A stretch of 37,314 nt of DNA from a virus: positions 1-37,314 of the IMG/VR virus record IMGVR_UViG_3300048836_000758; one strand, 5' to 3'. The number at the start of each line of letters is the position of its first letter. The first letter of the stretch is position 1. Shown in pieces: positions 9,748 to 37,051 of this stretch. The notes under the pieces are model-generated. The model was not told where the DNA came from. It made no database searches and saw only the letters and a program-made list of their open reading frames with translations. The translations under genes were made by a program, and so were the position numbers.

Positions 9748-10614
9748 TCATAAAAAGATGGTTGTTGGCCGGTTTCTGGCCACAAACCGTTCTTCTCTAA
9801 GGTTTAAATTTGATTGGGTGTTTTTCAGTGCCACGCTCTGTGGTGTGACGGCTATTTGAATAATCTCGGAACGTTCAACAAGGTCGATCTTGTCGCCTGG
9901 CATTAGGTTGGCAAACTGCGGCTGGACCCGCCGTAGGATGTCGCCAAGTAAGGCGTCGCCATAGTGCTCGCGCGCAATGGACTCAAAGGTTTGTCCCTCG
10001 CGCACAATAACGGTCTTGCCAATGGTGTGTAGGGAGCCGCCTGGAATATCGACAAGCTTTCTGAGGGTACTGAGTATGGCCGCCCCACCGGAGACAAGGC
10101 CGGCTGCGAACTTAATTTGCGAGGCCAGGCTTGTGGCGGCGTTCTCTGGTTCCAGATCCTCTATGACTTGAAGCTGAATATCGATAATTGCGCCGCGAAG
10201 AGAACCGTCGGTGCGTAGCTCGTCGTAGCGGAGCTTGATGCTGCGCACAAAGCAGGTGAATGAAATTTCCGTTCCGGCAGAGAATAGAAAGCGCGGTGCA
10301 CGTTTTAATTCTTTATTACGCCGCGTAAAAGATTTTAGAAGATTAACTTCTTGCTTAATATTTTTAAAGCTATTGGCTGCAAAGAGCCTCGTTGTAAACG
10401 AGACTACCTCGGAATCACCGCGCAGCCACTGGAAGTCCGGCTTTTCCTTGTTGATGGTCGTTGTTTCGCCAAGCGTTGAACCAATCGATTCTTCGAGCCC
10501 CTGCGCAATGAACTGTCCCTCAAATTCCTTGTCAAAGCTCGCATCGATGCCCTTGAGCTTCCACGTCTTCGCTCCAACGCCAAATATTTCACCGGCTGTT
10601 TCCAAAAACGCCAT
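9748..10614 (-). CDS. Contractile-tail tube-initiator/LysM protein
   Basis: 288 residues. Residues about 195-245 form a LysM domain (VREGQTFESIAREHYGD, then LMPGDKIDL). The N-terminal 190 residues have the layout of the CIS tube family protein found between tape measure and hub in contractile systems, including GTEISFTCFVRSIKLRYDE and RGAIIDIQLQVIED. In T4 the comparable protein is gp53; in eCIS it is the Afp7-like LysM protein. It would join the tube or hub to the wedge. The stop of the tape-measure gene overlaps this start (TAATG). Confidence 0.75.
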   Translation of the reverse strand: MAFLETAGEIFGVGAKTWKLKGIDASFDKEFEGQFIAQGLEESIGSTLGETTTINKEKPDFQWLRGDSEVVSFTTRLFAANSFKNIKQEVNLLKSFTRRNKELKRAPRFLFSAGTEISFTCFVRSIKLRYDELRTDGSLRGAIIDIQLQVIEDLEPENAATSLASQIKFAAGLVSGGAAILSTLRKLVDIPGGSLHTIGKTVIVREGQTFESIAREHYGDALLGDILRRVQPQFANLMPGDKIDLVERSEIIQIAVTPQSVALKNTQSNLNLREERFVARNRPTTIFL

Positions 10615-13600
10615 TATCCCGATACCCCGAAAGTTAGACCATTCTGTGCAACGCGCCGTTTAACCGCAGGATCAATTGAGCGACCGTTGGCTTCGGCGTT
10701 ATCAAGCATTGCCCGACTTAAAATGATGTTGAGATCACGCCCCGATATTTGGGTGCGAAGTTCACCCGTCAGTCGCACAGATCCCGTTGATGGTTGACTT
10801 GTTGCATTGCCTGTTGCAGATCCACGACGCACGGCGTCGACTATTTGCTCCTCACTCGGAGGACTACTGATCACCTTTTGACGAAGGCTCTCGGCGGCAA
10901 GTCGTTGGCTATCGACATTGGTATCGACGTAGCTCGGGTTGAGGGCTGTGGCCGGCTGATTTGCCGAGGTTGCGGCGGCAATAGATCGTTCAGCCTCTTT
11001 GCCAAGTTCAACGTTATGCTGCTCTGCAGGTGTTCCAATTGCCTGTAGCGTCCGAGCCAGATCACCGGGACTCGGCGCACTCTGTTTCTCTTGGCCTGGT
11101 TGTGCAGCGAGCGACGATGCGATGGTATTGCCAAGCATTTCGTTGGAGGAAACTTGGGCGTCTTTCACATTGCCTAACTGGCTTTCAAGCCTTGACTGAT
11201 TGCTCGTGCGCTTTGCTTCGAGCGAAACAACATTGTCAGCTAAGTTTCTGAGTTGAGCATCATTACTAGGTTCACCTTTAACAGTCGGCGTTGACTTTTT
11301 CTCGGCGAGAGAGACTACGTTCGCAAGTTGTCCGACATTGGATTGAGCGTCGCCTGTTACGGAGGCAAGCTCGTTAAGCTGGCTTCCAATATTTTTCGCG
11401 ACCTGCTGTCCAGCATTGGTTGTTTCGGGTGCTATGGGTAGACCATTTGGTTTGACGCTGGTGTTTTCAACTTTCAGCGGTTTTTCTGTGAGGTGATTTG
11501 CTGATGCAGCGAATTGGTCCAGTGATTCAGGTGCAATGCCAACTTCTGGCGGTACGAGCTGTTGGCTAAGGTCGAACTGCGCGTTTACATCGATAGGCTT
11601 TTCAGCCAGCGACGACATGGCACTAAAAGCTGCTGGTGATAGCGTTGGATTAGGCTGCGGGACTTTTAGCTGTGCGTTGATGCTTTTGAGTTGACCTTCA
11701 AGCATTGCGCCCTGGTCAACGCTGGAGGACACCTTAGGTGGTGTGAAGCTCGGAGATGGTTTGAGGTTGTTATCTTTTTTTTGAGCGAGGTTTGCAACTG
11801 CCTTTTGAAAATCAATGACCTTCGCGCCCTGATTTCCCTCAGCGTTGTCAGTTTCTAGGTTTACTGTGGCATCTTTATCACCAGTGAAAAAGTTTTTGAC
11901 TTTTCCAATCACCGAGCCTGGACCGGTGAAGTCGGCAAATGTTTTTTCTACGTTCGTGCCAAAATCTGAGAAGAAATCGAGAGTGCGATCAAAGAGACTT
12001 GGCCCTTCGAGAAAGCCGAAGACTCGCAAGAGTTTGTCGCCAAGGAAAATGACACCAGCGATAGCTGCAGCGATGGCGGCAACCTTGAGCAAAACAACGC
12101 CGAGTGGGATTGCAACCCCTACGACGGCTGCCTTAATGGCGACGAATGCGGCGACAGCAGCTTGCCCAAGAAAGGCAAAGACCGGCCCGAGCATTCCTAC
12201 TCCGAATATTAGACCTCGAACAATCAAGCCACCAAGCGAACCCACAACCCGCAGCGTGGTTGCTAAAAAGCTAAAGCCGCCTGAGATAAGTCGCGCGACG
12301 AAAGAGCCAACGACACCGAAATTTCTTACGCCAAGAATTAGTAGATCAAGAAAATATTTACCGGAACGAAACGCAAAGCTTGCTATCCGACCGACGACGC
12401 CGATCGTTGACCCCATAAGACCAAATAAGCTGCCAACACCTGAGATGATAGGGCTAAGGACCGCCAGACCGACGGCAATACCAGCGAGGACGGGAGCCGC
12501 TACAGCTCCGATAAAGATCACCTTCGCTGCAATTTTGCCGAACTCTTTTGCTGTGAGACCGGACTCTCCGAGAATCGGTTTTAGAAACGTAACGACGTCA
12601 TTAAAGGTCTGCTTGGCAAAATCGCGCAGCTCCTTGAACCCTTCGATGAAACCTTGAGCAAACTCGATAGCCGAGTTGATAAGGCCACCAAATCTATTTG
12701 TCTTGAGATCATCGAGTTCGGCAGCGGTGAGTTGCGTGCCGTCTCTTGCCTTCTGAAATCCGAGTGCCATGACCGATAGAAAGTCGGTCGGTCCTTCGAG
12801 TCCTTCTTTTAGTGGTCCAGTTACGAGACCGCCGACTTCAAGGCCAAGTCCCTCGGCAGCGGAACTAAGCATCTCGACTTGGCCTCGCAAGTTATCGAGG
12901 CGGATTTTTGCCATCTGACGCGCTGTACCTTCGGCACCGGCGATCTGTAGACGCATGGCGACCAGGGAAGGAATCGCCTTTCCAAGTTCAATCTTCACGT
13001 TGTCGCCGGTTTTCGCGAGACCCTTTCTCAGTTGATCGATGTTCTTTTCTGTGACCTCGGTTGTTTCAAGCAATTTTGATTGAAATGCGCCAAATGCGGT
13101 TGAGCCTCGCAACCCAAATATCTCGGCCACTTGCGCCGTAGCTTCGAGGGGATTGCGCGCGTTTGAAACGGCTTTCGCTGCGTTCGCCATGATTGCTTCG
13201 ATCGGCAAAAGTCTTTTGACACCGTTAACAGTCCTGAGAGTTGCCTCTTCGAGGCCGCCTTTACCGCCAAACAATTCGATCGCGGCCTTTGAGGGCTTCG
13301 AGAGTTGCAAAATGGCGTTTTTCAGTGCCGTTCCCGCAACTGAACCTTTGACGCCAGCGTTGGACAAAATACCTACCGACGAAGCCGTTTCTTCAAGCGA
13401 CAATCCGGCATTCTTTGCGATCGGCGCGACATACTTCATAGCCTCGCCAAGATCGGTAAAGTCGGTGTTCGTCGCAGCGGTAACAAGTGCAAGTGCATCA
13501 GCAACCGCAGTCGCGTCCTTTGCCTCGCGCCCAAAAGCTCCGAGTTGACCGGCGATAATGTCGGCGGCTTGTGCCATACCAACACCAGACGCCGCGGCGG

Positions 13601-14012
13601 CGTCGAGGACACCTGGCAGAGCCGATACAATCTGTTCTGTGGAAAAGCCGGCTTGCGCTAAAAGCTCGGCACCTTCACCGGCTTGTTTTGCAGTGAATGA
13701 GGTAGTCGCACCAAGACGTTTCGAGATGGCTGTAATTTTTGCCATCTCTTCAGGCGTGCCGAGCATGGCAGCCTGAACTTTGGACATTTGCTCTTCAAAG
13801 TCAGCCGCGGTTTTTGTTGCGAAGCCGACACCAAGGGCAAGGGGCGCAGTTGCCGCAGCTCCCGCGGCAGCGGCCCTACCAACGGCATCCATCGCCGCAC
13901 TGGTTTTGGCCATACCCGACTCAAGTCCGTTGAAGGCTTGCTTGGTTTTAGTGAGCGCAGCTTCAGCCCCTTGAGAGGAAAATTTCAAAATTGCATTGAG
14001 CTGAAATGCCAT
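10614..14012 (-). CDS. Tape measure protein (TP901 family)
   Basis: 1132 residues. The segment from about residue 70 (AADFEEQMSKVQAAMLGTPEE, then ISKRLGATTSFTAKQAGEGAELLAQAGFS, then LGEAMKYVAPIAKNAGLSLEET) is the TP901-type tape-measure core. Residues about 490-670 are strongly hydrophobic with several membrane-spanning-like helices, as expected for a protein ejected into the cell envelope. Residues 690-1060 are helical and low-complexity, rich in N, Q, L and S. By the usual rule of about 1.5 Angstrom per residue, tail length would be near 170 nm; this is an estimate. The start abuts the stop of the chaperone extension (TAGATG). Confidence 0.93.
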   Translation of the reverse strand: MAFQLNAILKFSSQGAEAALTKTKQAFNGLESGMAKTSAAMDAVGRAAAAGAAATAPLALGVGFATKTAADFEEQMSKVQAAMLGTPEEMAKITAISKRLGATTSFTAKQAGEGAELLAQAGFSTEQIVSALPGVLDAAAASGVGMAQAADIIAGQLGAFGREAKDATAVADALALVTAATNTDFTDLGEAMKYVAPIAKNAGLSLEETASSVGILSNAGVKGSVAGTALKNAILQLSKPSKAAIELFGGKGGLEEATLRTVNGVKRLLPIEAIMANAAKAVSNARNPLEATAQVAEIFGLRGSTAFGAFQSKLLETTEVTEKNIDQLRKGLAKTGDNVKIELGKAIPSLVAMRLQIAGAEGTARQMAKIRLDNLRGQVEMLSSAAEGLGLEVGGLVTGPLKEGLEGPTDFLSVMALGFQKARDGTQLTAAELDDLKTNRFGGLINSAIEFAQGFIEGFKELRDFAKQTFNDVVTFLKPILGESGLTAKEFGKIAAKVIFIGAVAAPVLAGIAVGLAVLSPIISGVGSLFGLMGSTIGVVGRIASFAFRSGKYFLDLLILGVRNFGVVGSFVARLISGGFSFLATTLRVVGSLGGLIVRGLIFGVGMLGPVFAFLGQAAVAAFVAIKAAVVGVAIPLGVVLLKVAAIAAAIAGVIFLGDKLLRVFGFLEGPSLFDRTLDFFSDFGTNVEKTFADFTGPGSVIGKVKNFFTGDKDATVNLETDNAEGNQGAKVIDFQKAVANLAQKKDNNLKPSPSFTPPKVSSSVDQGAMLEGQLKSINAQLKVPQPNPTLSPAAFSAMSSLAEKPIDVNAQFDLSQQLVPPEVGIAPESLDQFAASANHLTEKPLKVENTSVKPNGLPIAPETTNAGQQVAKNIGSQLNELASVTGDAQSNVGQLANVVSLAEKKSTPTVKGEPSNDAQLRNLADNVVSLEAKRTSNQSRLESQLGNVKDAQVSSNEMLGNTIASSLAAQPGQEKQSAPSPGDLARTLQAIGTPAEQHNVELGKEAERSIAAATSANQPATALNPSYVDTNVDSQRLAAESLRQKVISSPPSEEQIVDAVRRGSATGNATSQPSTGSVRLTGELRTQISGRDLNIILSRAMLDNAEANGRSIDPAVKRRVAQNGLTFGVSG

Positions 14013-14252
14013 CTAACGCCCCAGATATTTTGATCGCCCCGAAGTGCTTTTTCCTGTTTTTGTCGCTTTTTCCATCGCCTTGTTTTCCTTTTCCTTCTGT
14101 TCCACAAGACGCTTGAGGAACCACTCAAAGTCTCGTCGTCGCATCCGTTGCACGTCGCTGAATGTCATTCCGCCATTCATCCCGTAAAGAACCTGAAATG
14201 TAGCTTCGAGTCGTTCATCCCGGCTTAGGGCAGGGATGAACTGTCGAAAAAA
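14013..14252 (-). CDS. Tail assembly chaperone extension (GT-like), reached by -1 frameshift
   Basis: This frame encodes RQFIPALSRDERLEATFQ and then about 60 more residues, including a helical MTFSDVQRMRRRDFEWFLKR segment and a lysine-rich tail, typical of the T part of G/GT pairs. The open frame extends upstream only to a TTG at 14306, with no good ribosome site, and that upstream part merely shadows the zinc-ribbon coding region in another frame. A -1 slip at T TTT TTC (14246-14252) joins it to the preceding frame, giving a longer fusion. The end abuts the tape-measure start, the standard position for this gene. Independent translation from the TTG or an internal ATG is the alternative. Confidence 0.75.
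   Translation of the reverse strand, partial: FFRQFIPALSRDERLEATFQVLYGMNGGMTFSDVQRMRRRDFEWFLKRLVEQKEKENKAMEKATKTGKSTSGRSKYLGR
14213..14252 (-). promoter_or_regulatory. Programmed -1 ribosomal frameshift signal (slippery site plus stem-loop)
   Basis: In the mRNA sense: heptamer T TTT TTC in the correct phase (14252-14246), 4-nt spacer GACA, then a perfect 9-bp stem GTTCATCCC/GGGATGAAC (14241-14233 with 14221-14213) around an 11-nt loop. The 0-frame stop TAA (14227-14225) lies inside the loop, six codons after the slip. The -1 frame stays open through the rest of the next gene. The layout matches known G/GT signals; P2 E/E' also uses a run of T. Confidence 0.82.
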
Positions 14253-15064
14253 TAGTTGTAGCTCCAGTCCAGCATTCGGAACCATTCGGACTCGCAATGG
14301 ACGCAAACGCCTTTCATCGCCATAAGCGGACCAGCATTGTTTTCAACAATTGCTGCGGAGATTTTTTCAATGTCGATTTTTTTCATTTTCTTGACGACGC
14401 TTTCGACAAGGATCTTCGCTGCATCATCCTTGTCGGTTTTGACCTGACGGATACTCGACATGAACAGTAGTTGTTTCATCTTTGCGCCGTTTTCCGCGAC
14501 GTCTGCGGTTGCGCGTTCCATCACGTCCCAGCGCGCGACGTCGTAGCCAAGAGCCGATACCACCGTGCCATCTGGCATGATGACGGGCTTTTGAAGCTGA
14601 TAAACGTGCTCTCTTTGACACGTTTCATTCTTGGTATGAATTTCAAGAGTGCGAAGGTCGGCGACGAAATCTTTATTGAGTTTCTTGCATGTCGGGCAAG
14701 TCACATCCAGCTTGAGTTCATACCCAAGTTCTTCCGTCCGAAGATAGATATACATGTACATGACGTTGGTGAACTCTAGCTGGTTCACAAGTAGAATCTG
14801 TTGGTCTTTCGGTAGATTTTGAAAGTCGGTACCACAAAATCTATCGAGCAAAAGACAAAGTATCTGACTCACCATTTGGCCGACGTTGCGCGCTTTCTTT
14901 TGAATCTTGGCAATTTTCTCTTCCGTCTCCATATCCCATTCGAGAAAGGAAAACGTCGAGTCAGCTACCGGCTTTTTGTCTGGATCGTATCGAAGGACTG
15001 GCAGGCTTGCGCCAAGTTGATCGAGCGTGGTTTTGTCGTAGATTTTCCCTAGTTCTTGTTCCAT
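14225..15064 (-). CDS. Tail assembly chaperone (G-like) with zinc ribbon
   Basis: 279 residues, encoded between tail tube and tape measure, where long-tailed phages encode the chaperone that coats the tape measure. CPTC at about residues 132-135 and CVHC at about 255-258 could make one zinc site; the segment LKLDVTCPTCKKLNKDFVADL recalls the T4 gp26-type baseplate hub assembly family, so that is an alternative name. The ATG has GGGGGA about nine bases upstream. A fraction of ribosomes should slip near the 3' end and make a longer product (see the frameshift signal). No other gene is seen in the 85 bp before it. Confidence 0.72.
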   Translation of the reverse strand: MEQELGKIYDKTTLDQLGASLPVLRYDPDKKPVADSTFSFLEWDMETEEKIAKIQKKARNVGQMVSQILCLLLDRFCGTDFQNLPKDQQILLVNQLEFTNVMYMYIYLRTEELGYELKLDVTCPTCKKLNKDFVADLRTLEIHTKNETCQREHVYQLQKPVIMPDGTVVSALGYDVARWDVMERATADVAENGAKMKQLLFMSSIRQVKTDKDDAAKILVESVVKKMKKIDIEKISAAIVENNAGPLMAMKGVCVHCESEWFRMLDWSYNYFFDSSSLP

Positions 15065-15149: not shown

Positions 15150-15593
15150 TTAAATTGGGTCAACCGCGTCCGCAGAAAACGTCCACTCAATCATGGCCGG
15201 CTCACCCTCATTGGCCATGTCGAGGTCAGGTCCTTTTTTCTTGGTGATCCAAAGTCCACTAAGGGTATTGGTTGTCGCCACAACACCACCGATGTTTCGC
15301 TTAATGAGCGTTCCGACCTTTTTGTAAGTAGGAGTAACCGGGTCGCGTCCCTCTTTGAACCAAGCCTCAAGTGCTGCGCGCTCGGAGGCATGGTGCTCGA
15401 AAGACATCGCCGTAAACTCCACGGGCTTTTTGTTGCCGCCAGACGCCTTCGTGCGATCCGGCAAGTCGACGGCTTCAGTTTCATCTTCAAAGCCTGAAAT
15501 TTCTGAGAAAACAATCGGCGGAAGTCCATTTACCAAAAGCTCGTAGTTGTTAACGGGAATGTGACGTGGCTGAACTGTTCCTTGCATGACCAT
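15150..15593 (-). CDS. Tail tube protein (gp19-like)
   Basis: 147 residues, the usual size for the inner tube of contractile tails. The pattern NNYELLVNGLPPIVFSEISG, then VDLPDRTKASGGNKKPVEFT, then EHHASERAALEAWFKEGRD is the T4 gp19-like tube family. It lies directly after the sheath gene, as in all contractile systems. The first ATG is chosen because AAGGAGG sits six bases upstream, overlapping the sheath stop; the second Met at residue 3 would be too close. High expression is expected. Confidence 0.9.
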   Translation of the reverse strand: MVMQGTVQPRHIPVNNYELLVNGLPPIVFSEISGFEDETEAVDLPDRTKASGGNKKPVEFTAMSFEHHASERAALEAWFKEGRDPVTPTYKKVGTLIKRNIGGVVATTNTLSGLWITKKKGPDLDMANEGEPAMIEWTFSADAVDPI

Positions 15594-15608: not shown

Positions 15609-18251
15609 TTATGCCGCTGCCTCGGTCACGCCGAGTTCAGAAATGGTGATGATGAATTGCTTCGTAGTGTCAGCTAGCCGAATACGAAGCTCCGCATTCT
15701 TTTGACCGAGCGCACGTGTTGCATCTGTATTGTTTTCGTTGTCGATCTTGATAATGACCGCGTCGGAAAGGCTTTCACCGCGAATCGCGCGTTTCGCTAG
15801 TTCAGGCGTAAAGAACGCAATGAAGGCGGAATGAAGAAGTTTGTCGGACTGCGCATCGTTGATCGAGAAAATGATGAAATCGAAATTTTCAAGAAACGTA
15901 TTCTCGATATGAGACAAGTATTCGCGCTTGTGCTTGAATTTTTGCCCTGAGGTACCAAGCGTTTCGTCGCCCCAAAGAATGAAGTTTCCTTCTTTACGCT
16001 TGATGAAGTTAATGCCGACCGGGTCCAAGAACTCTTCGTTGATGGTTTTCCCTTCAAAGCCATCAGGCAGTGCGATGATGTTGCTTAGGATGACGTCAGT
16101 ACCGGCTGCCGCCTTGTGATAGCCTTGGAAGTTGTTTGCAACTTTGGCTTCGGCACCGTGAATGGCACCCGTCATTGACGTAAGCTTAAGACCAGTACCG
16201 ATGGGATTTTGCACCTTGGCAAACGATGGCCAACTAACGACTGCAAAATCGTTGCGTCCGAGTTGATCGTTTACGAACTCTTCAGCAGCCTGCTCGTCAG
16301 TGACGTTTGCTGGGATTTCATAGCGATATTGCCAATTCTGGCTTTCGGAGAGTAAGACAGCCGCTTTTTGAACCGCCGTGGAGGTAACGCCCGGTGTAGC
16401 GAGCTTCACCAGTCCAAGATTTTGACCACGAAGTCCCTTGAGCGGCGAGGTATCAGTATCGTAGGCATTGACGTAATGCAGGTCAGAAAGGTTTGCGATC
16501 CCATCGTATCCGCCGCCAAGCTCTGCAACGTACTCGGCGCGGAAGCTATCACCGACATCTGCATCGGCAGTCATGGTCGAGCCAGCTTTGACCGTGATCG
16601 TCGAGGCATCGTTGGAGACGATTCTAAATTTGATACGTCGTTCGTCGATATTGGGAACGAGCGTGCCGCCAACGAGTTTTCCAACTTCAAGCGGCGAGAG
16701 TAAGAGCTTTACCGTGTCGCCAAGGAGGAACGCCTTGGTTGACATTTTGGTGGTGTCAATGAGTGTAAAACCCGCGCCAAAGTCATTGGGGCTGACGAAA
16801 GCTACGCCAGAGGTGACGGTAAGACCCGTCAGGAAAGGCATAGCCGCGCTTTCGTAACTCCAGACCTGATTAACACCACCGGTAAGAGTCGCTGCTCCCC
16901 ACGTTGGTTCGGAACCGCCGCCCGCCGAGGTGGTCGCAATAGCGTTGCCAAGAAGTCCCGCGGTTTGCGCATAGACGTTCAAGACCGACGCAGACACTTT
17001 TTCTGCAAAAACTTTGTCCTGTAGCAACGTATCGATGCTGGCGTTGATAAACACTAGAAGGTTGTCAAGCGTCGCCTCGGCAGTGCCGCCAATAAGGAGT
17101 TGGCTTGTAGGCGTCGCTACAACTGTCTTGAAGGTGATAACTTTTCCATTAAGGGTGACGCTATCCCCGTCACTTGGGTTTGCGCCAAACGTCAATACAC
17201 CTAGGGCTCGCGCGCCCGCAGTTGTGACGGTCAATGTCACTTCGTCATCGATAACGGAAGCACCAGGGACCAACGGCGAGGCTTTCGCCGCGGCCCCCTG
17301 AACGGAAGAGATAACCTCGTCGTGGATCTTGGCACTAAGAACGGTATCAGTTAGGCCGAGCACCTTACCGAAAACGTTTGCGGGCCTGATATCGCTTGTG
17401 ATCGAACCGACGTGCAAGTCGGTCGCTTTGACAAGATACTCAGAATCAGGGTCGTCATTAATGACTTTTTGAAAATAATTTGGCGATTCGGGATCAGAAT
17501 TCAGGTTGGCAAAATCTTTTACCTTCGTCGAAACGCCACCCTCGATGAGGTAAACTTCAAGGCCCCATTCCTCAAGCGGCTTGTCTTGGCCATCTTTGAT
17601 CAAAAGGCCAAGAGCTAAACCGTCATTTTCAAGCTCGACCGACAACAATTGATCGAGGCTACCGTTTAGCTCCGTAACGACATTTACGTCTGCTGGAAGT
17701 TGCAAGACACCTAAGGCCGTATTCGACAGGATGTCAAAGGACTTCCCCGGAACAGCGTTGAATTTGACTTTGCCTCCGGCCAGCTCGTCCTTTTTCAGAC
17801 CGGTCGGCGGATTTGCGAGAGTGACCGAAGTCGCGGTGACGCTCGCGTAGACGTCGATAATTTTTTGTCGCTTACCACCCCAGCGACCACCATTTCCCGC
17901 CTCAAAACCAATAGTCTTTGAGCGGGTAGCCCTGCGATTATGAAATGAACGCGCGGCTCCTCTTTCACTGCCGTCAGTAACGCGGTTGACCCAGAGGCTA
18001 CCGGCCCCCACACCGAGATTGTAAAAGTCAAATGCCGCATCAGGCAAAAGTGACTGTGGAATGAAACCGCCAGCCTTAAAGCGAAACTGCTTCGAGTTAA
18101 ATGCCACGAAGGCTTTGCCTACCGGTCCCTTTTGGACGATGCCGGTATAGGCAGTGGTTCCCAGTGCACCTGAAGTGATTTGCTTTTGACCTTCTTTTTC
18201 TATAACCACGACGCCGGCTGCACGCGACGGTCCAAATCTTCTCTCTGCCAT
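15609..18251 (-). CDS. Tail sheath protein (large)
   Basis: 880 residues; typical sheaths are 390-660. The N-terminus (SRAAGVVVIEKEGQKQITSG, then GTTAYTGIVQKGPVG) and the C-terminus (DPVGINFIKRKEGNFILWGDET, then SHIENTFLENFDFIIFSIND, then AELRIRLADTTKQFIITISE) are clear sheath signatures that form the conserved core. The middle (about residues 140-620) holds inserted domains likely exposed on the outer surface. One of them, residues 361-460 (DGDSVTLNGKVITF and IGGTAEATLDNLLVFINAS), resembles residues 170-260 of the baseplate J protein. First gene of block C: the palindrome at 18270 lies just before its AGGAAAGGA ribosome site. Confidence 0.92.
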   Translation of the reverse strand: MAERRFGPSRAAGVVVIEKEGQKQITSGALGTTAYTGIVQKGPVGKAFVAFNSKQFRFKAGGFIPQSLLPDAAFDFYNLGVGAGSLWVNRVTDGSERGAARSFHNRRATRSKTIGFEAGNGGRWGGKRQKIIDVYASVTATSVTLANPPTGLKKDELAGGKVKFNAVPGKSFDILSNTALGVLQLPADVNVVTELNGSLDQLLSVELENDGLALGLLIKDGQDKPLEEWGLEVYLIEGGVSTKVKDFANLNSDPESPNYFQKVINDDPDSEYLVKATDLHVGSITSDIRPANVFGKVLGLTDTVLSAKIHDEVISSVQGAAAKASPLVPGASVIDDEVTLTVTTAGARALGVLTFGANPSDGDSVTLNGKVITFKTVVATPTSQLLIGGTAEATLDNLLVFINASIDTLLQDKVFAEKVSASVLNVYAQTAGLLGNAIATTSAGGGSEPTWGAATLTGGVNQVWSYESAAMPFLTGLTVTSGVAFVSPNDFGAGFTLIDTTKMSTKAFLLGDTVKLLLSPLEVGKLVGGTLVPNIDERRIKFRIVSNDASTITVKAGSTMTADADVGDSFRAEYVAELGGGYDGIANLSDLHYVNAYDTDTSPLKGLRGQNLGLVKLATPGVTSTAVQKAAVLLSESQNWQYRYEIPANVTDEQAAEEFVNDQLGRNDFAVVSWPSFAKVQNPIGTGLKLTSMTGAIHGAEAKVANNFQGYHKAAAGTDVILSNIIALPDGFEGKTINEEFLDPVGINFIKRKEGNFILWGDETLGTSGQKFKHKREYLSHIENTFLENFDFIIFSINDAQSDKLLHSAFIAFFTPELAKRAIRGESLSDAVIIKIDNENNTDATRALGQKNAELRIRLADTTKQFIITISELGVTEAAA

Positions 18252-21969: not shown

Positions 21970-23928
21970 TTAGCTAACTCTCCATATCTCTGCGCGTGCT
22001 CCAAATAATTGCGTGACGTCACCAGAGGTTGGCGAACGCATATCGATTGTGATGGTGTGAGTCGCCTGGCTCGCAAAGTTTACGTAAGAAAATCCCGACG
22101 TATGGACGCGCTGCGTAGTGCCACCTGCGGACGCTGCTTCGCGATGCGGAATTAGGAGATCAACGCCATCAATCTGCACTCGAATTTCGACATCGGTAAA
22201 GATCGTGTCGTGTCGCCAAATATAGGTAAAGCCGATCCTATATCGTCCGATAGGCTTCGATTGCGTGTTGTAGGTTGCATAGTTTTGAAATGATGTTGAA
22301 CTCGTCGATGACGTAGAGTTGGTCGCGAAATCTTCGCGCTCCTGCCCAAATGGAACAATTTTGTCGAGATTTGTTTTGTCGGCAGCACTCATAAATCCAG
22401 GAACGGATTGCGTGGCCACCGCATGAAGACTCCCGCCTGCCTGGTCGCCGTGCGAGTGAATATGATCTTGGCGTGCAAAGGCGTTTGCTGTACCCGTCTG
22501 ATTTGTTGTTCCAACAGTGCTAGGAACGCCCGTAGCAAGTGCATCAGCTCCATTGGGAAGGTGACGGCTGGCATGTGCGTTAATCAGAGCTGTGTTGCCG
22601 TCTATTTGTGCCTGTGTGTTTGCGGGAATGCCGTCAAGTTTTGTCTTGTCGGAACCGCTCATAAAGCCACTGGCACCGGCAGCAACAACATCAGCATGAA
22701 GAGAACCACCAGCCTGATTGCCATGCGCATGAATATGGTCTTGTCTAGCAAGCGCATTGGCCGTCCCCGCTTGATTGGAAGTTCCGACGGTGCTCGGAAC
22801 ACCAGTAGCGAGAGCGTCAGCTCCGTTTGGTAGATGCCGGCTAGCGTGAGAATTTATAAGAGCAGTGTTGGCATCAATTTGTGCCTGCGTGTTGACTGGA
22901 ATGCCGTCAAGCTTGGTCTTGTCGCCGCCTGTCATAAAACCAGACGCACCGCTGGCAATGACATTTGCGTGAAGGCTTCCCCCCGCTTGGTTGCCATGTG
23001 CATGGACGTGGTCTTGGCGTGCAAGGGCGTTAGCGGTTCCAGTCGCATTGGCCGTTCCAACAGTGCTTGGGACGCCGGTAGCCAGTGGATCATCGCCATC
23101 AGGCAAATGCCGCGCGGCGTGCGCCGTTATCGAGACACCGTTGATCGTTCCGATATTGAAAATTAAATGGCCATCGCCATTGAGGTCGCCAGCTAGGCTT
23201 GGATTGGGATCGTTAGAAACGCCAGGGCCAGGAGGTCCAACCGGTCCTATAATATTGGCAATGATGGTCCATACAGTTGGCGACGTCTTTTTATAGAGGT
23301 CGCCGGTCGTCGTATCGATATAGATGTCTTTCTCATACGCAAAGCTTGGCGACGGTACCCCTGCGCCGCTGAACCATTCGGACCCATCGATGTTGACGAA
23401 CTTGGTCCACGTGCTGGGATCGGTTTTCTCGTAGAGATCACCTGTTACCGTGTCGATATAAAAGTCTTGTACGCGCCCAAGAGAGCCAGACGGTGCGCCA
23501 GTGCCATGAAACCAGTCGGAGCCGTCAATATTGGTGATTAGATTCCAAGTCGTGTCGTCGACTTTTTCGTAAACATCACCATCGACCACGTCGACATAGA
23601 AATCTTTAGGCCGGCCAATGGACGACGCGGGTGCGCCGGCCCCATTAAACCAGTCCGAACCGTCTAGGTTGCCTTTGAGCGTCCAGGTATTGAACGCTGT
23701 CTTTTCGTAAAAATCGCCAAAGTCGGCATCAAGATAAAAGTCACCAGTCTTTCCAAGTGTCGGGCCAGGAACACCGTTACCCGTGAGCCAGGTCGAACCG
23801 AATATGGCGATGGAAACCCATTCGAGTAGACCCATAGCGGTCTTGATCGGCACCGTTTCATTGGCAGCCGGATCAAACCCCTTTGGGTTATGCAGTTCTT
23901 CCTGTGGCAAATCCTTGTGAACTGGCAT
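21970..23928 (-). CDS. Repeat-rich fibre protein encoded among head genes
   Basis: 652 residues. Residues 44-228 contain four units of exactly 46 residues, each with GS-W, then DFY-D, then GD-YEK. A short collagen-like GPVGPPGPG follows at 228-236. Residues 270-530 hold three units of 91 residues (HASRHLPNGADALATGVPST, then ARQDHIHAHGNQAGGSLH, then FMSGSDKTKLDGIP). The HxHxH motifs recall the metal-binding HxH turns of T4 gp37 fibre tips. The C-terminal 110 residues appear to be a beta-rich head domain. Lying between small head genes and the connector, it may be a head fibre or neck whisker and not a tail fibre; that is inference. No strong ribosome site is seen close to the ATG. Confidence 0.75.
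   Translation of the reverse strand: MPVHKDLPQEELHNPKGFDPAANETVPIKTAMGLLEWVSIAIFGSTWLTGNGVPGPTLGKTGDFYLDADFGDFYEKTAFNTWTLKGNLDGSDWFNGAGAPASSIGRPKDFYVDVVDGDVYEKVDDTTWNLITNIDGSDWFHGTGAPSGSLGRVQDFYIDTVTGDLYEKTDPSTWTKFVNIDGSEWFSGAGVPSPSFAYEKDIYIDTTTGDLYKKTSPTVWTIIANIIGPVGPPGPGVSNDPNPSLAGDLNGDGHLIFNIGTINGVSITAHAARHLPDGDDPLATGVPSTVGTANATGTANALARQDHVHAHGNQAGGSLHANVIASGASGFMTGGDKTKLDGIPVNTQAQIDANTALINSHASRHLPNGADALATGVPSTVGTSNQAGTANALARQDHIHAHGNQAGGSLHADVVAAGASGFMSGSDKTKLDGIPANTQAQIDGNTALINAHASRHLPNGADALATGVPSTVGTTNQTGTANAFARQDHIHSHGDQAGGSLHAVATQSVPGFMSAADKTNLDKIVPFGQEREDFATNSTSSTSSTSFQNYATYNTQSKPIGRYRIGFTYIWRHDTIFTDVEIRVQIDGVDLLIPHREAASAGGTTQRVHTSGFSYVNFASQATHTITIDMRSPTSGDVTQLFGARAEIWRVS
22380..23124 (-). 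repeat. Three 273-bp coding repeats (91-residue units)
   Basis: Tandem in-frame units in the fibre gene beginning near 23121, 22848 and 22575. The second and third are the closest; the last is cut short by the C-terminal domain. Recombination between them could change the fibre length. Confidence 0.75.
23245..23799 (-). repeat. Four 138-bp coding repeats (46-residue units)
   Basis: Conserved Trp of the GS-W motif recurs at residues 46, 92, 138 and 184 or thereabouts, giving a constant 46-residue period. Units differ by many substitutions, so duplication is old. Confidence 0.7.
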
Positions 23929-29804: not shown

Positions 29805-30884
29805 CTAAGCTGGAATTAGTTCACTTCGGCAACGGTAATGAGCTGGCGGAATTATTGGAACTCCCTGAGCTGATAGGAGATTTGCAACGTCGAAGGAGTC
29901 GAGCCTTTGACCTCGCGCGAGGTCAAATTCGGATAGGTCTTTGCGCCACCCTGCGGTTTCTATGAGACCGTCAGCGGTATCCTGTTCGAGGATGCGTCGC
30001 ATTTGATCTTGGCCAAGTTCGACAGGAAAAATTCGCCCATCCATAGCAAGACAGATTTCCGACGTTCGGTTGTCGACAATAGAGAGCCAACGGTAATTGA
30101 CAATTCCAGCGTCGTTCATCAGCGTTAAGGCCCCAAACCCTCGCGCTCGCGTGAGCGTTGTCGCGGCCAAACCTTCAAAGTAATGTCGCGTGGCTTCTTG
30201 TCCTTGCCTTCTGATCGACGCTGGAACCGCTTCGAGAAACCCACCGAGCTTTCGTCCCAGCTCGTCCATGACAAATTGAGCAGCCTCTCTTTTAGGCAGC
30301 CCCCTTTCTACGATTTCTCCCATAGCCTCGGCTAAACCCGGTTTTAATGTCCGGGGGAAGTGATCGCCAACGGCAACGAGGTGAAGCCGCGTCAAGTTTG
30401 TTATGGCCTCGCGATCGGTTGACGTCAGGGCAAAGCCCCCTCCGTCATCTTGGTCATCTTTGGTAAGAAAAAGACGTTCATAGGGGGAAAGCCGCTTTGG
30501 TTTTCGCTGCCGCTGTAGCCGTGCCCGGTATTTTCTAATGAACCGTTCCCTGGCAGCTTGGTAACTCCGGTTGATGGTATCGTTACTCATCTTTGCGACA
30601 GCGTCGTCCAAGCTCGAAAGCTCGTTGTCGAAAATGCGGAGGACCGCCTCTACGTCCTGGCCGGCGAATGGCTTTTGAGATGCCGAACCCAAGACCGAGG
30701 CGGCTTTTTTTAGACCACTTGTCACTCTTTGGTTCCACTCTCGCGAGGCATGACGCGCTAGTTTGCCTTCGGACCTTTCAATTTCTTCGCTGTCGGTGGG
30801 CTGAGCCTTTTCCACGGCCAGGCACACATGGTCATAAAGTATTTCGAGTGTACTGAATTTTGTTTCAACAGCATTGCTTTCCAT
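29805..30884 (-). CDS. Head morphogenesis protein (SPP1 gp7/Mu F-like)
   Basis: 359 residues from the ATG at 30884, which has GGGAGG six bases upstream; the longer frame starts with a TTG at 30923 that lacks a ribosome site. Near the C-terminus are YRWLSIVDNRTSEICLAMDG and PPAHYRCRSELIP, the hallmark of the Mu F/SPP1 gp7 domain (a W...D-RT...C turn and a PP-H-CR end). The rest is helical and basic. These proteins are minor head components taken into the prohead near the portal. It overlaps the portal gene by 20 bp. Last gene of block A. Confidence 0.85.
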   Translation of the reverse strand: MESNAVETKFSTLEILYDHVCLAVEKAQPTDSEEIERSEGKLARHASREWNQRVTSGLKKAASVLGSASQKPFAGQDVEAVLRIFDNELSSLDDAVAKMSNDTINRSYQAARERFIRKYRARLQRQRKPKRLSPYERLFLTKDDQDDGGGFALTSTDREAITNLTRLHLVAVGDHFPRTLKPGLAEAMGEIVERGLPKREAAQFVMDELGRKLGGFLEAVPASIRRQGQEATRHYFEGLAATTLTRARGFGALTLMNDAGIVNYRWLSIVDNRTSEICLAMDGRIFPVELGQDQMRRILEQDTADGLIETAGWRKDLSEFDLARGQRLDSFDVANLLSAQGVPIIPPAHYRCRSELIPA

Positions 30885-32628
30885 CGCTACCTCCCGCAGC
30901 TTCACCGAACGCCTCTTTTTCAAGTCCGAGCTTAAGGTGGCCGCGAAGTTCCAAAAGCGATTGCAAATATTGATTTGGATTTTTGAAGATCTCGGTAAAC
31001 AGAGTTTCCGAGTTCAAGCCTAAAATATCGGAACTTTTTGGCATCTGGCCTTGAGGCGCAAATGTCCCGTTCTGATTAGACGATCCTACGCTGTGCATGA
31101 GCTTCGCCAGCGTGTAGCTAAAGGGCACGTCCGGGTTAAAATCTGCGGGCATGTTTTCAAAGCCAGGGAGTTCGCGGTTTAAAATGTCTTCTAGCAAAAG
31201 CCGCGAAATCCTTGGTGTGAGGGCACCTGACCTTTCGGCACCCGTTAAAATATGCACAAGATCTTCGTCGTTGGTGACGTTCGGGCTATTGGATTTGAAA
31301 TTCCAAAAGCGAATGCCTTGCCTTAAGAGGATCTTGTTGATGATTCGGTCTTCAGCTTCTCGCTCTGGGTTGAAGACATACTTTTCGGTGAGGCGTTCGG
31401 ACACCTGCGCTGTCGCGCGGTCGTAATTTTCGGACGCGCCAACAAGAATAGGTGCGATGCGAAAGTTGCGCCGCAATTTCTTAGCGTTGTTCTCGTCGTA
31501 ATTTTGAAACAGCATGTCGGAATGCTGTGCTTTAGTGAGCGGAACAATTTCAATTTTGGCGTTGCCGGGGCTAGAGAGTCCGTCGTGGGTTGATTCACCC
31601 TCAAGGATCAACCATTTTGAAAAATTGCTTGATCCTGCCATTTGCGACTGCACAAATTCTCTGATCCGCTCAATCGATCCCTGCGTGAGCATGGCACCGT
31701 TAGCCAAGATGGCGAACGAGGGGATATTGTTGTTCATGAGAGTTATAAGATTGGTTTCATCCGCCTGGCGTGAACCGCGCACAGAAATAATATTGCCAGT
31801 GAATCGAGGCATTCCATAAGGGGTTTGGCGACAAGGCTTGATTTTGAAATGATAGACCTCGTTCGCACGGAGTTCTTTAGGGAGTTTTTCGTCGGCTACC
31901 TCGCCTGTTCGCCGGTCGATAATCCTCGGATCGCAAAATTCCTTAAAAAATACCTTTTTGCCGCCAACAATTTGCACAAAACGACGAAAGCGTTTCATGA
32001 AAAACTTCTGTCCCATTGTGAAATCAGGCTTTACGAAGTTGAGCCACATTTTAGTAAACGAGCGGTCAGCGCGAGTAATGCGCATCGAATCAAGCAGGTT
32101 GACGCAAGAAAACCTATTTTCAAACATGGGATGTGCAACAAGCTCCCAATAGGCGTTCCCTGTTTGCTCGCGAACGCTGCGCGTATTGCGTCGCAGCTCG
32201 GCAAAGGAATCGTCAGGATTCGGATACTCAAAGAGGTTTGAGAGGAATAGATGCTCTTCGTCGATCGTCTGCTTGTGCTGGGTTTCTAGCTCTTTTGACA
32301 TTTTCTTTTGGAATAAGCGGCCACCGAATCCGTCAATGCCAATCGACATTGCTTCGATCGTTTGACCGAGTTCTGTCGAAAACTCGGCAAGACATGCTAG
32401 TTCCTCCTGCGAAAGTGGCGGCGGTATGATTTGCGGGCTTAGGCCAGAAACTTCCAGCTCATCATCTACAAGACTATATGATTCGGTTTTTTCGACCTTG
32501 TTTGATATTCCAACAACGGTCGCCTTTAGGATGAGCGCGTTGCCTTTTGTGTCCTCAACGGATATTTTCTGCGTCGCAAGTGTTGTCCCGCTACCGCCCG
32601 AACGTTTAATCAGTTGTGCTCTGCCCAT
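30865..32628 (-). CDS. Portal protein
   Basis: 587 residues. Shows the portal layout: a helical stem and clip region, KIKPCRQTPYGMPRFTGNII around the middle (a Y-G-P motif common in PBSX/HK97-type portals), then ANGAMLTQGSIERIREFVQSQ, and FRIAPILVGASENYDRATAQV as in the portal wing. The family forms the dodecamer through which DNA passes. It follows the large terminase by 11 bp and precedes the gp7-like gene. The C-terminus ends in a Cys pair (KQCC). GGAGAAATAT precedes the ATG. Confidence 0.88.
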   Translation of the reverse strand: MGRAQLIKRSGGSGTTLATQKISVEDTKGNALILKATVVGISNKVEKTESYSLVDDELEVSGLSPQIIPPPLSQEELACLAEFSTELGQTIEAMSIGIDGFGGRLFQKKMSKELETQHKQTIDEEHLFLSNLFEYPNPDDSFAELRRNTRSVREQTGNAYWELVAHPMFENRFSCVNLLDSMRITRADRSFTKMWLNFVKPDFTMGQKFFMKRFRRFVQIVGGKKVFFKEFCDPRIIDRRTGEVADEKLPKELRANEVYHFKIKPCRQTPYGMPRFTGNIISVRGSRQADETNLITLMNNNIPSFAILANGAMLTQGSIERIREFVQSQMAGSSNFSKWLILEGESTHDGLSSPGNAKIEIVPLTKAQHSDMLFQNYDENNAKKLRRNFRIAPILVGASENYDRATAQVSERLTEKYVFNPEREAEDRIINKILLRQGIRFWNFKSNSPNVTNDEDLVHILTGAERSGALTPRISRLLLEDILNRELPGFENMPADFNPDVPFSYTLAKLMHSVGSSNQNGTFAPQGQMPKSSDILGLNSETLFTEIFKNPNQYLQSLLELRGHLKLGLEKEAFGEAAGGSDGKQCC

Positions 32629-35367: not shown

Positions 35368-35967
35368 TTAAATTGGTTGTTCATTTCGCTCTTTATTCGC
35401 TTGGGGGTTTTTCCTTGGGTTCTTTTCAATGACCAACAGAGGAGCATCAGGCTTACTGTAGTGCGAAGAAATCAGAACATTAATATGTCCGGCGACATTG
35501 GTTCGGATTTCGTCTTTTTCGGACTCTTCGAGTTTGCGTCCCGCATCCTCTTCCCATATGGACACATCAGCATCTTTGAATGTGTATTGAGTGCCCGGCT
35601 TGACAACGATATAGTCCTCCGGCTTTTCCAGAGGAAACGTGCGTTTTTTCTCCCACCGCTTGATTTCGCAGCAGCTCTTGCAAAGAGCGTCCTGTCTTTC
35701 AATATCTTTTTTGTAAAACTGGTCGGCGTTCTTGCATTTTACGCAGCCAGGACAGTGACGCGGTAACGGTTTTCTTGGAAGTCTTATTTTGATCTTTTGC
35801 GCTTCGTCCGCCGCATCAGCAGAGGCGGTCATATTTGTATTTCTAGCAAACCGCGCCGACACCCTGCACCTCATGCACTGCTGGTCGATTTTCCCGGACG
35901 AAGATTTGTAAAAGAGTTTTTGCGCCTTTTGCTCATTGCAGCTTGCGCATTGAATTTTATTCTCCAA
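35368..35967 (-). CDS. Tandem zinc-finger protein A (CxxC...FY...CxxC twice)
   Basis: 199 residues. Two fingers are visible: CASCNEQKAQKLFYKSSSG ending in CMRC (residues 7-34), and CPGCVKCKNADQFYKKDIERQ ending in CKSCC (about 75-102). The shape CxxC, FY, about 8-10 residues, D, CxxC is frequent in phage proteins of unknown function and in HNH-linked fingers, but no HNH residues are seen. The C-terminal half is acidic with SIWEEDAGRKLEESEKDEI. The start is TTG with AGGAG six bases upstream. It is transcribed away from the other two-finger gene. A regulator role is possible but unproven. Confidence 0.62.
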   Translation of the reverse strand: MENKIQCASCNEQKAQKLFYKSSSGKIDQQCMRCRVSARFARNTNMTASADAADEAQKIKIRLPRKPLPRHCPGCVKCKNADQFYKKDIERQDALCKSCCEIKRWEKKRTFPLEKPEDYIVVKPGTQYTFKDADVSIWEEDAGRKLEESEKDEIRTNVAGHINVLISSHYSKPDAPLLVIEKNPRKNPQANKERNEQPI

Positions 35968-36164: not shown

Positions 36165-36259
36165 GCCTTTGCTGGAGGAGAAACGCGGAACGTTCAGAAG
36201 GCAAAAATTAGCTGGATTCTGTGATATACGTCTCGATTCAAAACAGCGCGGAGAAAGCT

Positions 36260-37051
36260 ATGAGCAAAAGCGAATTGGATTTGCTGATTGAGGGAAGGCG
36301 TCGTTGCACGCAATGTTTAGAGATAAAATCGCTAACGGATTTTTACAGTAAAGGTAGTCGATGTGACAGCTGTTGTAAGGAGTGTGTCAAAGAAAAGAAG
36401 CGGCGTCTGTACGAAATGGCTCGCGCCAAAGATCGCCTAAAAAAAGAGGCTGAACGAGTCCAAAAGGTGGCTTCGCTAATTGCTGATTCCAATCCGGATG
36501 GAGCGAAGGGGAAAGCTGCAAGTGAAACAAAGTCGAAGAAAGTCTGCTCTAAATGTTTGGAAGTGAAGCCACTCAATCGCTTTTATAGCAGAAATGGTCG
36601 ACCTGACGGTGAGTGTATGGAATGCAAAAAATTGCATCAAAGACTGCGCTATGAGGGTAAGCATGGAAGTGAGGAGAGCAGGATTCTTAAAGGGATTGTG
36701 AATACAATCGAGCCGGAGAACGACATTGCGGTCGCAGATATTGCAGACTTCCTTCATCACATGCGCGATCCGCTGTCACCGATCAGGTTCATTTTGAATC
36801 CCGAAGAATTCATGAAGGACTTGGACCGCCACATCGAACGCGAAGAAAAGTTAAATGCGCTAAATGAAGTGACCCTGAACATAATAAATGACGTTCACCG
36901 GAAGGAGGGTAAGCCGTTGGAGCCGGTGCCAGCACGGAGCCGACACTTTAGAAACATTAAGGCCACGTATGAGGGGCTAGCGGCGGAGGTGAGGAAGGAG
37001 CTTCGAGCTAGTCCGGTCGCCGCAACGCCGGGCGCAGAGAAGTTGGTTTAA
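36260..37051 (+). CDS. Tandem zinc-finger protein B (CxxC...FY...CxxC twice)
   Basis: 263 residues from the ATG at 36260, chosen over a GTG 13 codons upstream because GGAG lies six bases before it. Fingers: CTQCLEIKSLTDFYSKGSR ending in CKEC (about 17-42), and CSKCLEVKPLNRFYSRNGR ending in CMEC (about 94-121). They are very alike, so an internal duplication. A basic, helical linker (RLYEMARAKDRLKKEAERVQ) lies between. The C-terminal 130 residues are helical and charged with no known domain. It is the only plus-strand gene seen and converges on the recombinase. Function unknown; nucleic-acid binding is a fair guess. Confidence 0.7.
   Translation: MSKSELDLLIEGRRRCTQCLEIKSLTDFYSKGSRCDSCCKECVKEKKRRLYEMARAKDRLKKEAERVQKVASLIADSNPDGAKGKAASETKSKKVCSKCLEVKPLNRFYSRNGRPDGECMECKKLHQRLRYEGKHGSEESRILKGIVNTIEPENDIAVADIADFLHHMRDPLSPIRFILNPEEFMKDLDRHIEREEKLNALNEVTLNIINDVHRKEGKPLEPVPARSRHFRNIKATYEGLAAEVRKELRASPVAATPGAEKLV

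Follow-up and report, generated by a model that had tools for sequence, protein, structure and literature searches.

The window, the whole of a 37,314-base virus record, carries its structural genes on the minus strand, namely terminase, portal, capsid, sheath, tube, chaperone, tape measure, hub, spike and baseplate, with the portal and baseplate J assigned by eye. The features of the tail region are collected in Table 1. The 5' end of the gene adjoining the portal gene (29805-30923, minus strand) and the 3' end of the portal ORF overlap, and the product of the adjoining gene, which has the C-terminus PPAHYRCRSEL, may resemble a MuF-type minor head protein. A 652-aa protein encoded at 21970-23928 on the minus strand contains repeat units of the type HASRHLPNGADALATGVPSTVGT.N..GTANALARQDHIHAHGNQAGGSLHA and is probably the protein of a fibre or appendage built from repeats. 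The proteins encoded at 35368-35967 (minus) and 36221-37051 (plus), thus on opposite strands, have spaced CxxC modules in common (C..C...K....FY....G....C..C) and are perhaps related to each other.

Table 1. Predicted genes and signal elements around the tail assembly chaperone gene of the window
Feature	Position	Strand	Basis or remark
Tail sheath protein (contractile tail)	15609..18251	-	phrog_23 tail sheath, 4e-13
Tail tube protein, upstream of chaperone gene	15150..15593	-	PF06841 (T4 gp19), 0.0012, under curated cut-off
TAC-N, 279-aa T4 gp26-type tail assembly chaperone, 0-frame ('G') product	14225..15064	-	ORF and homology
GGAG, Shine-Dalgarno-like element	14262..14265	-	9 nt 5' of heptamer, within Trp-Ser codons
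Slippery heptamer T TTT TTC	14246..14252	-	in codon phase, near 3' end of 279-aa gene
Spacer GACA, 4 nt	14245..14242	-
Stem-loop, 9-bp stem	14213..14241	-	arms GTTCATCCC (14241..14233) and GGGATGAAC (14221..14213)
Loop TGCCCTAAGCC, 11 nt		-	contains 0-frame TAA at 14227..14225
-1 frame extension ('T' part)	14013..14246	-	77 aa past the shift; would occur only in the 350-aa TAC-NC fusion
Tape measure protein	10614..14012	-	PhageMin_Tail PF10145, 9e-39; phrog_1533 tape measure, 3e-73

The 279-aa gene occupies the chaperone slot directly upstream of the tape measure gene, the PF10145 protein starting at 14012. Past the putative shift point the -1 frame has 77 open codons before its stop at 14015..14013, and the tape measure ATG begins at the very next base. 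A fusion of the two frames (TAC-NC) would be joined at ...SYNYFF-RQFIPALSR, with the predicted tryptic junction peptide MLDWSYNYFFR, and the 0-frame product ends in ...YFFDSSSLP. An initial annotation of this DNA had listed a heptamer, spacer, stem, loop, 0-frame stop and open -1 frame at this place, and all of them were found, on the minus strand. Since 31 in-phase slippery heptamers occur across the genes of the window, and are therefore not rare, and since the 50 nt 3' of this heptamer have a folding z of -4.8, the window sequence by itself is suggestive only.

The 279-aa protein matched PF12322, the family of both T4 gp26 and gp51, at 2.4e-4 (21.3 bits, under the curated cut-off of 24.5 bits), and 10 of 13 relatives matched it as well, the best at 1.8e-10. 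In a profile-profile comparison the short form of the window group aligned with T4-like gp26 over 216 columns, up to the final FF (prob 95.7). An AlphaFold2 model of the 279-aa protein (pLDDT 88.5) had fold matches to viral 'baseplate hub assembly' proteins with E down to 1e-12, and its best fold match was an uncharacterised Bacillus phage protein (E 5e-15); Leptospira phage LE4 was also among the fold matches. A Foldseek search of the model against the PDB gave no significant match, the HK97 chaperone 2OB9 appearing weakly (E 2.7, prob 0.16, TM 0.42 by target length). Two CxxC pairs (C123, C126, C254 and C257) are invariant in the 13 relatives, and the second pair is absent from most cyanophage members. 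Judged by these sequence and model comparisons, the upstream protein is a member of the T4 gp26/gp51 family (PF12322). The zinc ribbon and the likeness to the T4 gp26 group, both proposed in the initial annotation, are supported by the four invariant cysteines and the family matches. A gene of Leptospira phage LE1 was examined separately and found to lie outside the T4-type chaperone family.

Scans with the 279-aa protein of the window gave no close relatives in IMG/VR or among cultured phages, and the tail tube gene, whose relatives are L001-L005, was therefore taken as the anchor, followed by alignment searches of IMG/VR and one Bdellovibrio MAG contig (L017, 68% identity). After near-duplicates were dropped, 31 non-redundant loci remained (the window and 30 relatives), with protein identity down to 24-30%; one of them, L059, was read by eye. 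A PF12322 search of 192 genomes of the Bdellovibrio MAG's phylum gave no matches and is uninformative because the controls were silent too, and a custom profile run on 291 genomes returned the known locus only.

The heptamer is in phase at the same Phe pair in all 31 loci, as TTTTTTC except in two that have TTTTTTT, and the terminal motif around this FF is mostly W[S/R]YDxFF. Its recurrence in relatives, on which the initial annotation had staked its reading, thus extends to all 30 of them. Every locus has a -1 extension of 58-81 codons that is conserved as a protein (alignment A5) and ends at or near the start of the next long ORF, in most loci no more than about 20 nt from it. With each gene's own codon use and the loci treated as independent, the joint probability of a T-ending codon followed by TTT is about 1e-33 (log10 P about -33), a value overstated because the loci have common ancestry; the identities nevertheless fall as low as 24-30%. 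In T4 gene 26 the FF pair is encoded by TTC TTT, with no slippery run, and therefore the residues alone do not impose the heptamer. That the heptamer is more than chance is settled, at the level of sequence, by this comparison of loci.

Codon choice points to a further element upstream. The p-values given here for codon choice and folding are optimistic, because the loci are related. Of the 21 loci with Ser after the Trp, 17 encode it by AGY, which accounts for 32% of the Ser codons in these genes (p 6e-6), and all 5 loci with Arg there use AGR, against 27% (p 0.0015). The 50 nt downstream of the heptamer fold more strongly than control stretches taken from these genes (group mean z -2.06 and -0.34, respectively; Mann-Whitney p 7.5e-9), as they do in the T4-like set (p 0.011). 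The TGG AGN codons place GGAG 9 nt 5' of the heptamer. Other well-populated Ser columns have 10-53% AGY, the exception being a small column three residues on (6 of 8). This bias indicates that the GGAG element is under selection at the synonymous-codon level. The same stem at a constant position is clear only in the nearest relatives, and its arms double as coding for conserved residues in two frames. Paired stem changes, which the initial annotation had offered as a check, were seen in L017, where an A-U pair has become G-C (TTCGTCCC/GGGACGAG), but in distant loci the stem differs or is looser, and L059 lacks one altogether (z +2.0). The predicted signal is now better defined than in the initial annotation, with three parts, the GGAG having been added.

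The extension of the window group (A5) aligned with the T4-like -1 extension or 'gp51' (A4) from FFR on (prob 96.2, E 2.5e-9), and the T4-like extensions (A4) aligned in turn with the last 55 residues of T4 gp51 (A6; prob 96.3, E 1.8e-9). The route through T4-like intermediates was needed because direct comparisons were too weak: A5 against A6 gave prob 4 over 23 columns, and single T4 gp26 or gp51 against the alignments gave short, low-probability matches (prob 2-12). By way of the T4-like intermediate, the profiles indicate that the extension is homologous to the C-terminus of T4 gp51, a protein in which the extension is fused to a full gp26-like domain. From this chain and the gp26 homology it follows that T4 gp26 would be the short form and gp51 a hard-wired long form. 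The parts of the signal, their conservation and the homology to T4-like gp26 and gp51 are thereby shown at the level of sequence.

The same heptamer with a -1 ORF was found at 14 of 18 T4-like gp26 loci, in cyanophage, Pelagibacter, Delftia, Stenotrophomonas, Vibrio and Aeromonas phages, some of them cultured; Synechococcus phage S-RIM2, Aeromonas phage CC2 and Delftia phage PhiW-14 are cultured examples. Since gp26 and gp51 are the chaperones of T4-like phages, and most of these gp26 loci carry the heptamer, the upstream partner is not the unusual one that the initial annotation had supposed. In Pelagibacter phage Mosig, T TTT TTC lies close to the 3' end of the gp26-like gene, and what is annotated there as a 44-aa 'gp51' is a segment from within the -1 extension. 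Four T4-like loci, Cygsa01, K471, May and SD25 (L074, L077, L078 and L079), have no heptamer and still carry the extension in the -1 frame, with TAATG overlaps in Cygsa01, K471 and SD25; reinitiation or a weaker site of shifting may operate at these loci.

A 2016 review described G/GT frameshifting as conserved in long-tailed phages 'except T4' (PMC5009743), and cyanophage gp51 has been described as about 20% of the length of other gp51 proteins, corresponding to their C-terminal region (PMC3037559). The tail-assembly chaperone genes of T4-like phages were identified in 2022 (Vladimirov, Gautam and Davidson, Virology 566:9-15), according to passages in citing texts that report a short gene and a fused long gene in some T4-like phages and polyT -1 signals in T4-like TAC-N genes, and that do not give the gene names (PMC10885494, PMC12846349). 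Because the identification and the citing papers precede this work, the T4 equivalence is not claimed as new. The window group and T4-like gp26/gp51 have homologous short forms, homologous extensions and an identical FF joint, and the heptamer is common to many T4-like phages, whereas T4 has separate genes in place of the frameshift, gp26 for the short form and gp51 for that form joined in frame to the extension. The window group differs from the T4-like phages in that its members are uncultivated phages with contractile tails, in which the extension immediately precedes a PhageMin_Tail tape measure gene, the short form has a conserved WSYDxFF[DG]SS end, and GGAG lies in the Trp-Ser codons. 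The signal in the window is of the G/GT type, a kind already described in T4-like phages and here present in uncultivated ones. Its three-part layout is that of the dnaX-type signal, with a Shine-Dalgarno-like element upstream, a heptamer, and a stem-loop downstream. The dnaX heptamer is A AAA AAG, in a different gene. Phage lambda slips at G GGA AAG, and to our knowledge its gpG is not a zinc-ribbon PF12322 protein. The likeness of lambda G/GT (Levin 1993; Xu 2004) to the window is by analogy, with no sequence homology shown. The chaperones of P2 (E/E+E'), Vandenendeviridae and Andersonviridae likewise have a T-rich -1 site in the same gene slot of contractile-tailed phages, but their slippery motif, GTTTTT, differs from T TTT TTC (PMC12846349).

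The best explanation of these observations, and one that we regard as very probably correct, is that 15064..14225 is the chaperone gene of a contractile-tailed phage and makes both TAC-N and TAC-NC by -1 frameshifting. The initial annotation had proposed a cassette of the G/GT kind in the chaperone slot, and the conservation in 30 of 30 relatives supports it. We infer the slippage, its rate and product ratio, the roles of the sub-elements and the role in assembly as follows. Most ribosomes would stay in the 0 frame and make the short form. GGAG would pair with 16S rRNA about 9 nt upstream, priming the ribosome at T TTT TTC, over which the downstream stem-loop would stall it. A minority of ribosomes would then slip back by one base, both tRNA-Phe re-pairing on TTT TTT, and read 77 more codons to give the 350-aa long form. 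If the analogy with lambda G/GT holds, the tape measure protein may be coated by many copies of the short form and few of the long one, the extension may bring in tube subunits and so let the tube grow to its proper length, and both chaperone forms may leave after assembly.

If the -1 ORF were a separate gene, translated from its own start codon or by termination-reinitiation with no fusion made, there would be no need for conservation of the heptamer, GGAG and downstream folding, and T4 gp51 has the extension fused to a full gp26-like domain. Such a gene could use the in-frame ATG that lies 13 codons before the shift point in the window, where TTGs are also present; public T4-like annotations do list the downstream part as 'gp51' or a hypothetical gene, and the TAATG overlaps of Cygsa01, K471 and SD25 occur without a heptamer. 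In most relatives, however, no start codon lies in the stretch of the -1 frame that runs from its upstream stop to the heptamer, and several relatives have a -1 frame that opens only a few codons ahead of the heptamer. The initial annotation's view that the -1 frame has no convincing start needs the qualification that the window does have this ATG and the TTGs, but no start is conserved in relatives. Because start codons are not conserved, separate translation is disfavoured, and we consider it very unlikely.

Slippage of the polymerase on the T run, instead of ribosomal frameshifting, could also yield mixed products, and there are six consecutive T to act on. Transcriptional slippage usually takes place on longer runs, of about 8-9, and the conservation of phase, the GGAG spacing and the downstream folding favour the ribosome, which leaves this explanation more improbable than a separate gene. 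The least credible reading is a chance run over fixed FF codons, a sequencing error or a decaying gene: in-phase heptamers are indeed common in the genes of the window, but this one recurs at a single site in independent contigs, in a contig of a bacterial MAG and in cultured phages, and T4 encodes its FF without a T run. Frameshifting at T TTT TTC thus remains by far the preferred reading.

These comparisons assign a large group of phages, uncultivated and with contractile tails, to the T4-type chaperone family, with the putative frameshift site held at one residue pair over very wide divergence. With heptamer-bearing T4-like loci at hand, some of them from cultured phages, the switch between frameshifting and gene duplication becomes testable, and the small 'gp51' genes in many T4-like records would be better annotated as -1 extensions. 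We lean slightly towards a broader proposal, in which GGAG, T TTT TTC and the stem would form a cassette ancestral to the whole T4-type family, far beyond the T4-like phages; the two genes of T4 would have replaced it late, through duplication and in-frame fusion; the small 'gp51' genes in many cyanophage records would be annotation artefacts of a -1 extension; and an upstream Shine-Dalgarno-like stimulator would belong to the signal in general.

Several minor observations concern the extension in other records. One A5 extension weakly matched DUF6760 (0.0034), with another single sub-threshold match at 0.053, and no reference genome gave a signal for this link; in contractile injection systems, DUF6760 may represent the split-gene counterpart. 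One A5 extension matched phrog_634 'baseplate hub assembly catalyst' at 1.2e-5. The gp26-type gene of Bacillus phage SP-15 (L082:34990-35929), a cultured phage of B. subtilis, has GAA TTT TTT CAC at its end, and the matching extension (..YYIPGMTWEATESMAIFERKEMYSRLL..) is in the +1 (= -2) frame, not -1, making a different shift mode possible. In Aeromonas phage CC2 (L076:3190-3351) the -1 extension after gp26 is unannotated in the public record, and in several other T4-like records only an ATG-started fragment is annotated as gp51.
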